DNA of 45,866 bases from Armatimonadota bacterium. GTDB lineage: Bacteria; Armatimonadota; UBA5829. Every line of letters starts with the position of its first letter. Within the stretch, counting starts at the first letter, position 1. Location: the NCBI GenBank assembly GCA_012522555.1, contig JAAYKG010000007.1, forward strand, positions 1-45,866, written 5' to 3'. Shown in pieces: positions 121 to 3,890 of this stretch. A program made the position numbers and the translations under genes. The notes under the pieces are model-generated. The model searched no databases and was not told the origin of the DNA. It saw only the letters and a program-made list of their open reading frames with translations.

Positions 121-723
121 ATGGGACTGACTTTTCACGAGATTACCGATGTCAACGACGATTTGCTGCTGCACTGGCTTGATCTTTACGAGGTTTCTTT
201 TCCACCCGAAGAAAAGCTGCTGGTTTCGCGCTTTCTCTGGCTGCTTAAACCGGATATTCTGGAAAAGCCGGATTGCCATCTGCTGGCGGTCCTCGACCAG
301 GGCGGCGAGTTTGTAGGACTGATGTGCTACGACATCGCCCACAGCATCAACGCTTACTCATTGTGGTATTTTGCTAACGTTCCCCAGCGACGCGGCAGTG
401 GACTCGGGGCGGCTTGTTACGCTGAAGTAATTCGCCGAGCAAGCGAAGCCGGCGCGGATCTTTTGGTGTTTGAGGTCGAAGTGCCCGAGGATTCGGCCGA
501 TGCCGACATTTCTCGAAGACGCATCGAATTCTACAGACGCCAGGGCGCAAAGCTGGTGCGTGGAATCCACTTCACACAAAAAATCGGTGACCACACGCGG
601 CGAATTCAAATGAACCTGATGGCGCATCCTCTGCGCCCGATCCCTCCGGCGGATGTGCTGGAAGTCTTGAAAAACTACTACGGTGATGATCTGCGACAAG
701 TCGGGGAGGTGTCGCTGGAATAG
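121..723 (+). CDS. GNAT-like N-acetyltransferase
   Basis: 200-aa ORF; acetyl-CoA loop-like RRGSGLGAACYAEVIRRA and IEFYRRQGAKLVRG. Confidence 0.7.
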   Translation: MGLTFHEITDVNDDLLLHWLDLYEVSFPPEEKLLVSRFLWLLKPDILEKPDCHLLAVLDQGGEFVGLMCYDIAHSINAYSLWYFANVPQRRGSGLGAACYAEVIRRASEAGADLLVFEVEVPEDSADADISRRRIEFYRRQGAKLVRGIHFTQKIGDHTRRIQMNLMAHPLRPIPPADVLEVLKNYYGDDLRQVGEVSLE

Positions 724-756
724 AATAAAGCCGAACCGACAAACATTCCTACCCCC

Positions 757-786
757 GCCTGGCACAATCCGTGTCGGGCTTTTTTT
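757..786 (+). terminator. Rho-independent terminator upstream of the capsid gene
   Basis: GCCTGGCAC-AATCC-GTGTCGGGC stem (9 pairs including G-T wobbles) followed by TTTTTTT. Confidence 0.75.
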
Positions 787-822
787 GATGCTTTTCCATC
801 ACAACCCGAAAGGATATACATT

Positions 823-1728
823 ATGTCTTTAACCAGAACCGATACCCCAATACTGCTGGAGGACGGACTTAAGACTGTCTTTTTTGAGGCGCTGGATGCG
901 ACGATAGGCAACTATGAGCGCATAACCACAGTAATCACCTCCGAATCCGACCAGGAAACCTACGCGTGGCTCGGGGCCGTGCCGACGATTCGTGAGTTCA
1001 CCGACGAGCGGATGCCGCTTGGATTGTTGGAGCACGACTATTACATTCGCAACAAGACCTGGGAATCCTCGATAGCGATCGAGCGCACATCGATCGAGGA
1101 TGACAAATACGGCGCAATCAAGCTGCGTGTGGCTTCGCTGGCTCGCGAGACCAAACGCCACATGGATGAGTTGGTTTTCGGCCTGTTAGGCGGAGGATTT
1201 TCTCGCAAATGCTACGACGGCAAGAATTTCTTTGCGACGGATCACGTCGAGGGCGAGTCCGGCACTCAGTCTAACAAGGGCACTGCCGCTTTATCCGCCC
1301 CGGCGCTACAGGCTGCCATTACCGCGATGATGAAATATCGCGACGATCGGGGCCGATTGCTTGGCGTGACCCCGGATCTGCTCGTGGTGCCTCCGGACCT
1401 GCAATGGACTGCGATGGAGTTGTTGGAGAGCAGATATTGGCCGGGGGAGGGATCGGTGACGGCGAAAACAGCATCCAACGTGCTGAGAGGCAAGCTGGAC
1501 TTGATGGTGTCGCCGTATCTCACAGACACCAACGACTGGTTCGTATTGTCGACCAAAGGGTTGGTCAAACCGATTATTCTTCAAAGCCGCACTCCCGCCG
1601 AATTCGCTGCGCTGGAATCCGGTTCTGAGAACGGATTTATGCGCGATGAGTATCTCTACGGGGTGCGCGCACGCTACAATACGGGTTATGGACTGTGGCA
1701 GATGGCCTTTGGAAGCCAGGTCAACTAG
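823..1728 (+). CDS. Mu gpT-like major head subunit
   Basis: 301 aa; LxxGLKTVFFEAL N-terminus, FFATDHVEGESGTQSNKGTAALSAPALQAAITAMMKYRDDRG and LLVVPPDLQWTAMELLES typical of Mu-like gpT capsid proteins. Confidence 0.8.
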   Translation: MSLTRTDTPILLEDGLKTVFFEALDATIGNYERITTVITSESDQETYAWLGAVPTIREFTDERMPLGLLEHDYYIRNKTWESSIAIERTSIEDDKYGAIKLRVASLARETKRHMDELVFGLLGGGFSRKCYDGKNFFATDHVEGESGTQSNKGTAALSAPALQAAITAMMKYRDDRGRLLGVTPDLLVVPPDLQWTAMELLESRYWPGEGSVTAKTASNVLRGKLDLMVSPYLTDTNDWFVLSTKGLVKPIILQSRTPAEFAALESGSENGFMRDEYLYGVRARYNTGYGLWQMAFGSQVN

Positions 1729-1736
1729 CGATATTT

Positions 1737-1777
1737 GCATCGGGTGCGGCGCGGGTCACGCCCGATGCTGTTTTTTT
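1737..1777 (+). terminator. Rho-independent terminator downstream of the capsid gene
   Basis: GCATCGGG ... CCCGATGC inverted repeat followed by TGTTTTTTT. Confidence 0.75.
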
Positions 1778-1789
1778 ACAGGAGGCAAT

Positions 1790-2155
1790 ATGTTCAATCT
1801 CAAAAATACACTTCCGATATCAGTCCACATATCGTCCGGCGGGGCAGCCCGCACCAGGACCGGCGGGGCTGCGATCTCCCTGGACGGTATCAGCGACGGC
1901 AGCTTTCAGGTCGTTGCTGCAAGCCGCTATCGATTGTCTTGCTTACCGGGTATGCTTCAAGGCAATCTGCTGTTGATTGGCTATGAAAACCCGATTGACC
2001 TGAGTAACTGCTCGTTTATCCTGGACAATGAGATCGCTTTTGAAGACGATGTGCCGGAAGGGACAAGGGTCTACTTCGCAATTGTGGATACTGACGGTTT
2101 CACGCCCATAGAAGGTGATGTAAGTGACGTGCTGTATGTTTCATTTTATGGATAA
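1790..2155 (+). CDS. Hypothetical phage structural protein (possible decoration protein)
   Basis: ATG at 1790 preceded by AGGAGG; position between capsid and connector-like genes; no homology recognised. Confidence 0.6.
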   Translation: MFNLKNTLPISVHISSGGAARTRTGGAAISLDGISDGSFQVVAASRYRLSCLPGMLQGNLLLIGYENPIDLSNCSFILDNEIAFEDDVPEGTRVYFAIVDTDGFTPIEGDVSDVLYVSFYG

Positions 2156-2164
2156 GGAGACGAA

Positions 2165-2596
2165 ATGGCCATATCCATCACTACCGCCGAGGTTAAGCGC
2201 AAGGCCGGAATAGATTCTGCCGTCACCACCTTTGATACCGCAATCGGCGCTTTGATCAGTGAGATGCAAGGCCCGATCGAATACTCCATCGCAGATATCT
2301 ATCTCGCCGATACAAACAACCAAAAGCTGCAGGCCACGCTCAAGCTGGGGATGCTGGAGATCATTACAGGTGAGTGCATTCAACAACTCCGACGCGAGAC
2401 CGGCGCCACCGAGCAATTCACCATCGCCGGGGTGACAATAGGCCCTCCGGCGGACGGGGGCGCAGATTTGATCAGGCAAGGGGGCGCTCGGCTGGCCCCG
2501 TATCTAAAGAGCGCTCTGCCTATGGACTATGAGACGCACTGCATCAGCTCGACGATAGATTCAAAGTTGTTTTTCGGCTGTAAAGAGGAGGTGTAG
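2165..2596 (+). CDS. Phage head-tail connector-like protein (gp6-like)
   Basis: 143 aa, helical, ITTAEVKRKAGIDSAVTTFDTAIGALISEMQGPIE resembles gp6/connector N-terminus; synteny. Confidence 0.5.
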   Translation: MAISITTAEVKRKAGIDSAVTTFDTAIGALISEMQGPIEYSIADIYLADTNNQKLQATLKLGMLEIITGECIQQLRRETGATEQFTIAGVTIGPPADGGADLIRQGGARLAPYLKSALPMDYETHCISSTIDSKLFFGCKEEV

Positions 2597-2600
2597 CAAG

Positions 2601-2900
2601 GTGCGATTTGTTGACAGGGTTGCGCACAAGCTCGACTTCTTCGGCGAGACGTTTTCCGTAAATGGAAACGCGTGCCAGGGCATGTTCAAGCTCTTGGATA
2701 CCGGCACGATGAGGTTGTATCTTGACGATATCGAGAGCATGGGAATAACCCATCCGGCTCTGGCGCTGGTAACTACCCCGGACGTAAATCTTGAAATGGG
2801 GGACATGATCTCGCGCGACGATCGAAATTATACCGTCTTGAAGATCGCTACTCACCGCATCGGCGGTAACGCAGTGATAAAAATAGCGATTCTCAGCTAG
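2601..2900 (+). CDS. Phage head-closure/joining-like small protein
   Basis: 99 aa, GTG start after GAGGTG; MGDMISRDDRNYTVLKIATH pattern; synteny. Confidence 0.45.
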   Translation: MRFVDRVAHKLDFFGETFSVNGNACQGMFKLLDTGTMRLYLDDIESMGITHPALALVTTPDVNLEMGDMISRDDRNYTVLKIATHRIGGNAVIKIAILS

Positions 2901-2979
2901 CCGTGTTTATACGCGAAACACCGTTAGCTGAAGAGCGGATTTTGCTCGCTCCCTCCTCTCCTCCCAACTGAAAGGACAC

Positions 2980-3309
2980 ATGATGATCGGATTCAACACA
3001 ATATCCACCCACGACTGGGTTACCCTCGCGGTCGGCCTGACCGGGGCGTTGTCTACGTATCTCAGTCAGAGAGACCGGCTGCCCAAGTGGGCTAGAAAAT
3101 GGCTCAAGCGTATTGGCTCGCAGCGAATTACCGATGCGATCGAGCGTGCCGGAGCCATCGCTGAACTTTCCCCCGACGAGCGCAGACAGCAGGCGGTTTT
3201 ATATCTACAGAAGGTGTGTGTGGGCGAACTTGGATTCCCTGTCCCACACAGCATCGCCAATCTGCTTGTGGAACATGTATATCAGCAGTGGAAGCGAGCG
3301 CGCAGATAA
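2980..3309 (+). CDS. Putative holin-like protein
   Basis: 109 aa; one hydrophobic N-terminal segment (WVTLAVGLTGAL), helical charged C-terminus; immediately upstream of amidase with overlapping TAATG. Confidence 0.5.
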   Translation: MMIGFNTISTHDWVTLAVGLTGALSTYLSQRDRLPKWARKWLKRIGSQRITDAIERAGAIAELSPDERRQQAVLYLQKVCVGELGFPVPHSIANLLVEHVYQQWKRARR

Positions 3310-3890
3310 TGATTGTCCCGACGAAAATCTACAAAGCAGCCCTCGACGCAGGCCACGGTTCAAGCCGTGGCCTCGCTCATACCGGCTGTGCCGCTAACGG
3401 CCTCGTGGAAGATGACCTTGCACTTGATTTCATCACTCGGATCGGCCATCACGTGCGATTGGCTGGTCATAAGACTACCATCACTCGTACCGATAGTAAG
3501 CTCGTATCGCTGGTGGAGCGAGGCAGGATAGCTATCGCTTCAGGATGCGATCTTTTTGTCTCGATTCATATAAACGCCGGGCCTGCGACTGCCAACGGTG
3601 TCGAGGCGTTTGTGGCACAGGGGGATAAACGCAGCCAAGCTATTGCACAAAGGCTGGTTGGTCGTGTCATTCGGCACGGCCTGCGGGACAGGGGGGTTAA
3701 ATGGGATTCTCTGAGTCAATACAGCCGCTTGAAGGTGCTGCGCGACACCTGCCGATATATGCCGGCTTTGATTTTGGAGATCGGGTTTTTGACCAGCCTG
3801 CACGACGCCGCGCTTTTGAAAGATAAATATTGGAGAGAGGCGGTGTCGATGGATATCGCTGAAGGTATTATCGCGCCTCCGCCGAAGTGA
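3309..3890 (+). CDS. N-acetylmuramoyl-L-alanine amidase (Amidase_3), endolysin-like
   Basis: ALDAGHGSS, DLFVSIHINAG, LILEIGFLTS motifs; start ATG 3309 overlaps upstream stop. Confidence 0.85.
   Translation: MIVPTKIYKAALDAGHGSSRGLAHTGCAANGLVEDDLALDFITRIGHHVRLAGHKTTITRTDSKLVSLVERGRIAIASGCDLFVSIHINAGPATANGVEAFVAQGDKRSQAIAQRLVGRVIRHGLRDRGVKWDSLSQYSRLKVLRDTCRYMPALILEIGFLTSLHDAALLKDKYWREAVSMDIAEGIIAPPPK

Follow-up and report, generated by a model that had tools for sequence, protein, structure and literature searches.

The locus described here raises the question of why a bacterium should keep phage head and lysis genes in tight succession when no tail genes follow them. The window (the whole stretch of DNA analysed, 45,866 nucleotides) corresponds to contig C222 in full; the draft genome to which it belongs, that of an Armatimonadota bacterium (G000), totals 2.78 Mb. 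Close named relatives are the Armatimonadetes MAGs JAAYKE010000067 (capsid identity 82%) and DJHI01000215 (76%). An earlier note on this DNA had placed a compact head-plus-lysis module at 121-3890, and had offered as explanations a domesticated particle (GTA-like, a capsid-containing element or a satellite), a decayed prophage, or a tail module lying upstream. The cassette features carried by the window are as follows.

2..82, + strand: 3' end of a cement/decoration gene (26 codons and stop); the remainder lies at 16693-17024 of L038 (contig C66 of the same genome)
121..723, + strand: GNAT acetyltransferase, a cellular insert between the cement and capsid genes and not a head part (PF00583, 1.3e-7)
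823..1728, + strand: major capsid protein of the Mu gpT type (PF10124 Mu-like_gpT, E 1.7e-74; phrog_371 major head protein, 1.6e-80)
1790..2155, + strand: small variable gene (121 aa), confined to some members of the window's class
2165..2596, + strand: putative head-tail connector/adaptor (family-level PF05135 Phage_connect_1 and gene order)
2601..2900, + strand: head-closure (stopper) protein (PF05354 Phage_attach in the family; AlphaFold structure matches)
2980..3309, + strand: holin-like small membrane protein, a weak assignment (phrog_1350, E 0.17; one N-terminal hydrophobic stretch)
3309..3890, + strand: N-acetylmuramoyl-L-alanine amidase, endolysin-like (PF01520 Amidase_3, 2.2e-33; endolysin PHROGs)

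The capsid, connector-like, closure-like and amidase genes named in the earlier note were all borne out by Pfam, PHROG or AlphaFold matches, and the holin-like gene stands as holin-like, at the strength listed. The extent of the module was confirmed for 823-3890, but the gene at 121-723 is the cellular acetyltransferase, which occupies the same position in G001 and is missing there in other genera. The small gene at 1790-2155 has homologues in G001, G008, G015 and G013, and a Pfam search with it gave no match. PF05135 was matched by 2 of 33 members of the adaptor family (best 3.3e-5); the AlphaFold model was helical (pLDDT 82) and gave no clear match in a fold search, and it is this Pfam family together with gene order that points to an adaptor. 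For the stopper family, 6 of 29 members matched PF05354 (best 1.5e-4), and the AlphaFold model (pLDDT 93) resembled the solved stoppers or necks of phages T1, lambda and SPP1 (probability 0.99-1.00, E 3e-3 to 3e-2). The holin-like family was kept in host families f1 and f2, with a more distant version in f5. The start of the amidase gene overlaps the stop of the holin-like gene, and the amidase also adjoins the module in G001, G008, G004 and G013. All ORFs of the window's own cassette are intact.

The window begins inside the cassette, within the cement gene, as the translation of 2-82 corresponds to the C-terminus of the 138-aa cement protein of G001 (family match phrog_1731, 3e-22). The missing upstream half is on contig C66. 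This contig harbours TerS, TerL, the portal (PF06074, 3.4e-75) and a prohead protease/scaffold (phrog_976, 5.6e-13), and it joins the window in frame, without a visible gap, at the cement length seen in G001. The TerL belongs to Terminase_6N and the portal to Portal_Mu. The genome thus has its head and packaging genes arranged as in a phage, with the lysis genes placed directly after the stopper. Examination of the upstream flank, as proposed in the earlier note, recovered terminase, portal and protease and no tail; in this contig and its homologues these genes are followed by cellular genes, which is contrary to the suggestion of a tail module upstream of the window.

No tail genes were found upstream or downstream of this cassette or in the related cassette loci examined, and to this extent the earlier observation held. 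Clustering of the ORFs around the capsid or TerL gene in 13 host families yielded no recurring tail family; it recovered the head and packaging genes together with a coiled-coil membrane protein specific to one class, shadow ORFs antisense to these, and unrelated cellular families. Tail profiles were matched in some of 30 cassette genomes (sheath in 7, baseplate-J in 10, tape-measure in 6, gp10-like in 1), with no match to any of these in G019, G047, G148, G193, G228 or the window's own genome. A contractile tail was rejected as a required partner on the basis of this distribution of the sheath. A genuine prophage was present in G004, with a capsid 54% identical to that of the window, and among its head-completion and tail-region proteins only one matched anything in Pfam or PHROGs, namely a PHROG of unknown function. 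Such scans therefore cannot exclude a siphovirus tail. The tail-region proteins of this prophage, used as queries, matched that prophage alone. A linked or closely related tail seems unlikely from these searches, with which an unlinked, very divergent tail would be compatible. Integrase or transposase, repressor and tail modules, which are present in outline in the G004 prophage and in Faecalibacterium phage FP_Mushu, were not found around any of the cassette loci examined.

Across the phylum (291 genomes, most of those surveyed being drafts), the capsid profile was matched in 124 genomes, almost always in single copy, including 25 of the 28 in the window's class; some relatives (G005, G012, G024) had no capsid by this profile. 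TerL was found in 149 and the portal in 144 of the 291, mostly in single copy, counts which take in some unrelated prophages. With strict cut-offs, TerL accompanied the capsid in 104 of 118 capsid genomes (Fisher p 3e-41 for co-occurrence), and capsid, TerL and portal were together in 97. The head-and-packaging set was common to 13 host families. The lysis genes were not conserved beyond the window's class. In the complete genomes G202, G203, G148 and G228, TerL and the capsid module are separated by 0.76-1.03 Mb, so that the packaging of all these genes by a single particle seems hardly feasible. TerL and portal stay together in most f16 and f37 genomes examined; in f8, the portal comes after the capsid module and TerL is on its own; and f11, which lacks this TerL, has kept a protease (S49), the cement protein and the capsid. 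Cellular inserts were observed in f1, namely an aquaporin gene between TerL and portal (G004, G008), the GNAT gene (G000, G001) and a DUF3800 gene (G004).

RpoB distances were correlated with those of capsid, TerL, portal, cement and protease (r 0.86, 0.88, 0.90, 0.79 and 0.86, respectively; Mantel, permutation p 2e-4), even where the capsid, TerL and portal genes sit up to 1 Mb apart. Quick maximum-likelihood trees of capsid, TerL and portal, with several prophage rows on long branches, recovered nearly all host families, and the RpoB tree of 30 such genomes was very similar in shape to the TerL tree. Omega (dN/dS by the NG86 method, from two species pairs only, G202/G203 and G026/G027) was 0.03-0.13 for most cassette genes, the range of the flanking cellular genes, and was higher or unusable for a few short ones; synteny was conserved. 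In TerL, the Walker A (GRRWGKT), Walker B (VDEAA) and STPxG motifs and the nuclease aspartates were invariant, and the H, S and E columns of the protease were conserved. In-frame stops were seen in G027 (one each in portal and capsid) and in the G001 capsid; the latter is likely an assembly error, as a neighbouring cellular gene there also has a stop. The nearest phage records had less than 43% identity, and the sole 'viral' contig at 75% (L066) was the cassette itself. The comparison with relatives, also proposed in the earlier note, thus revealed purifying selection and not strain-specific decay.

The cassette is likely to be a vertically inherited, domesticated DNA-packaging head set that works like a gene transfer agent (GTA). 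Domestication of the head genes is well supported, and the GTA-like particle listed among the original explanations gains support from vertical inheritance throughout the phylum, from purifying selection, from terminase motifs that are intact and from the dispersal of the genes over the chromosome. As the same gene set has been inherited and protected by selection across much of the phylum, it probably forms a particle which carries DNA and serves the cell. DNA packaging would be the natural reading of the conserved terminase and portal, and the adjoining amidase suggests release by lysis in the window's class. The sequences show the gene content and its conservation, the catalytic residues, the vertical descent and the lack of linked tail genes; from there we infer assembly, host-DNA cargo, lysis and transfer, as follows. 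A Mu-like tailed phage would have been captured early in Armatimonadota history and its head and packaging genes (TerS, TerL, portal, prohead protease/scaffold, cement, capsid, adaptor and stopper) kept by the host; in several lineages, these now lie dispersed along the chromosome or have cellular genes between them. The protease/scaffold would shape the prohead, the terminase would pack host DNA through the portal, and the adaptor and stopper would close the filled head. Release of the particle would follow, in the window's class, through lysis of the producing cell by the neighbouring amidase and holin-like protein. Several observations fit this picture less well: the weak holin assignment, the restriction of the lysis genes to the window's class, the f11 set that lacks this TerL, the relatives with no capsid, and the in-frame stops of G027 and G001. 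Tentatively, this might be a truly tailless, ancient, phylum-wide particle, in which closed DNA-filled heads are released by lysis and the DNA is shared without an injection tail; recipient DNA uptake, for example, may serve as the delivery route.

The cassette might alternatively be part of a standard GTA with a complete tailed particle, the tail genes of which lie at a separate, unrecognised locus. This is possible but somewhat doubtful. Head genes are themselves scattered in several families, so tail genes could be too, but none recurs near capsid or TerL/portal in the 13 families. Pfam and PHROGs were uninformative for the tail region even of the genuine prophage in G004, which makes such a locus easier to accept, as does the retention of adaptor and stopper, which are normally tail docking sites; the tail profiles that did match were, however, patchy (1-10 of 30 cassette genomes, none in the window's own), and the G004 tail proteins reached no further than their own prophage despite the related capsid. 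Alternatively, the head might have been kept for an intracellular job, such as DNA storage, protection or packaging related to cell death, and not for gene transfer. The reduced set of f11 is as expected of shell-only use, and both the missing tail (near cassette loci and with the G004 queries) and the restriction of the lysis genes to one class fit this idea, which we nevertheless regard as unlikely, given that terminase and portal are retained with the capsid in 97 genomes and that the amidase adjoins the module in f1.

Phylum-wide vertical inheritance, low omega and invariant terminase residues argue against a decaying prophage and equally against a satellite, the two other origins that had been proposed. 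A prophage remnant is very improbable: integrase, repressor and tail genes are indeed missing, and the portal and capsid of G027 and the capsid of G001 carry stops, but the G001 stop is the likely assembly error, the window's cassette has intact ORFs, most cassette genes have an omega of 0.03-0.13, and the set, shared by 13 host families, descends vertically through the phylum. Capsid-forming satellites may resemble a head-only gene set in content. Such a satellite (cf-PICI-like) or another mobile element is an extremely remote prospect here, since no integrase, regulatory module or other mobility gene recurs at the cassette loci, the trees are congruent with those of the hosts, the genes are dispersed over up to 1 Mb, and housekeeping genes have been inserted, such as the aquaporin gene of G004 and G008.

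Genetic definitions exist for few GTAs, most of which come from Alphaproteobacteria (PMC9662315, PMC12946183). A domesticated, GTA-like head set in Armatimonadota would probably represent a further, independent capture that extends through much of a phylum; its genes are dispersed in the manner of other chromosomal genes, and no tail is detectable. It makes two matters testable, namely very long-term selection for a phage head alone and the way in which such a particle hands over DNA. Virus catalogues may also count such cellular genes as viruses, as one IMG/VR contig is this cassette. No account of a cassette of this kind in Armatimonadota was found in the literature (open-licence papers); in the genome paper of Fimbriimonas ginsengisoli, the only element described is a prophage of 45.5 kb, of the ordinary, excisable type.

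Several known systems were compared with the cassette. FP_Mushu (MG711460), whose capsid is 42% identical, shares the head order of TerS, TerL, portal, protease, small protein, capsid, adaptor and neck. It differs in having a head-morphogenesis gene after the portal, and sheath, tube, tape measure and baseplate genes after the neck; the cassette has none of these, and lysis genes follow its stopper. A Mu-like prophage identity was rejected, as the tail, transposase/integrase and repressor modules are absent around the cassette loci examined, and the identity of a cf-PICI, a mobile element equipped with an integration module, was rejected on the lack of recurrent mobility genes and the vertical trees. 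Encapsulins share with the cassette an HK97-fold shell kept by the host. Encapsulin nanocompartments (PMC8346489) differ in that no recurring cargo enzyme accompanies the cassette, which has kept its terminase and portal as well as adaptor and stopper; this identity, a shell gene with cargo but no packaging motor, was rejected on the co-retention of TerL and portal with the capsid in 97 genomes, to which f11 is the exception.

GTAs are defined by caudovirus-derived proteins, caudovirion-like (tailed) particles and full endogenisation, often over several loci, by mostly vertical inheritance with co-diversification with the host, by an inability to package their whole own genome, and by the packaging of random host DNA and its delivery to other cells (PMC9662315). 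The cassette has caudovirus-derived proteins (gpT capsid, Portal_Mu, Terminase_6N, protease, connector and stopper families), is endogenised over several loci (capsid and TerL up to 1.03 Mb apart, cellular inserts) and is inherited vertically (trees, RpoB distance correlation). Its head genes are complete and tail genes were not found in the searches, and self-packaging appears implausible in those genomes where the genes are dispersed over about 1 Mb. As these three features are present, whereas the particle may or may not be tailed and may or may not be able to package its own genome, the set is called GTA-like and is not filed as a GTA. RcGTA, BaGTA and BhGTA/VSH-1 are likewise caudovirus-derived, fixed in their hosts, of vertical descent and spread over multiple loci, and in the Brachyspira GTA the single terL also lies outside the structural cluster (PMC9662315). 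The cassette is distinguished from known GTAs by its Mu gpT-type head, its phylum and the lack of detected tail genes; BhGTA, for example, has a 65 nm non-contractile tail (PMC9662315). FpGTA of Faecalibacterium is, like the cassette, a GTA-like operon outside Alphaproteobacteria (PMC12946183). It encodes short-tail homologues, whereas no tail genes were found with the cassette, and its particles have been observed. These particles showed no identifiable tails; among GTA-like particles in which no tail was seen, FpGTA offers the closest precedent (PMC12946183).

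Other genes in or near the cassette (the inherited phage head and DNA-packaging gene set) are listed below, where L038 is the locus carrying its upstream half in the genome of the window (G000).

L038:16127-16525, minus strand, membrane-protein-like ORF of 132 aa, between the protease and cement genes and on the opposite strand to them
window 8917-12735, minus strand, very large repeat-rich (FG-GAP-like) secreted protein
L038:2873-7522, protein of the same kind
L042:15-5291, protein of the same kind
window 3927-4706 and 4703-5584, NlpC/P60-like protein and PF09924 (LPG synthase C) protein

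The 132-aa ORF had no Pfam match, and a relative (37-39% identity) occupies the equivalent position in G003. The FG-GAP-like proteins were close to the cassette in G000 and G008. Membrane segments are predicted in the NlpC/P60-like protein. It and the PF09924 protein are encoded downstream of the amidase gene in G000 and also in G001; both are probably cellular, and the NlpC/P60 domain could help in lysis.

A reduced cassette was present at L046, L057 and L058 (G047 and G033 of family f11; G052 of f25). It is limited to the capsid and cement genes plus one for a large protein resembling a protease, which in G047 is of the S49 type. No cassette-type terminase was found in these genomes, and shell-only use is possible. 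For all genomes G217-G222 (family f16, genus g40), TerL was matched (E about 1e-48 to 1e-57) and no capsid match was obtained. Either the capsid of this lineage has diverged strongly, or its terminase is an orphan. In-frame stops were observed in the capsid and adjoining URO-D genes of G001 (L039/L040), likely an assembly error, and in the portal and capsid genes of G027 (L141), possibly the start of decay.

Contractile-tail or injection-system clusters, encoding a sheath of about 620 aa and a baseplate-J-like protein, were detected in a minority of cassette genomes (L170, G001:C160; L171, G008:C4; L172, G203), with a tape measure in the f1 clusters, and were absent from G000.

A 7.6 kb IMG/VR 'viral' contig (L066, IMGVR_UViG_3300032397_002336) encodes portal, protease, cement, capsid (75% identity), adaptor, stopper and amidase. 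This is the cellular cassette, which the virus catalogue therefore counts as a virus.
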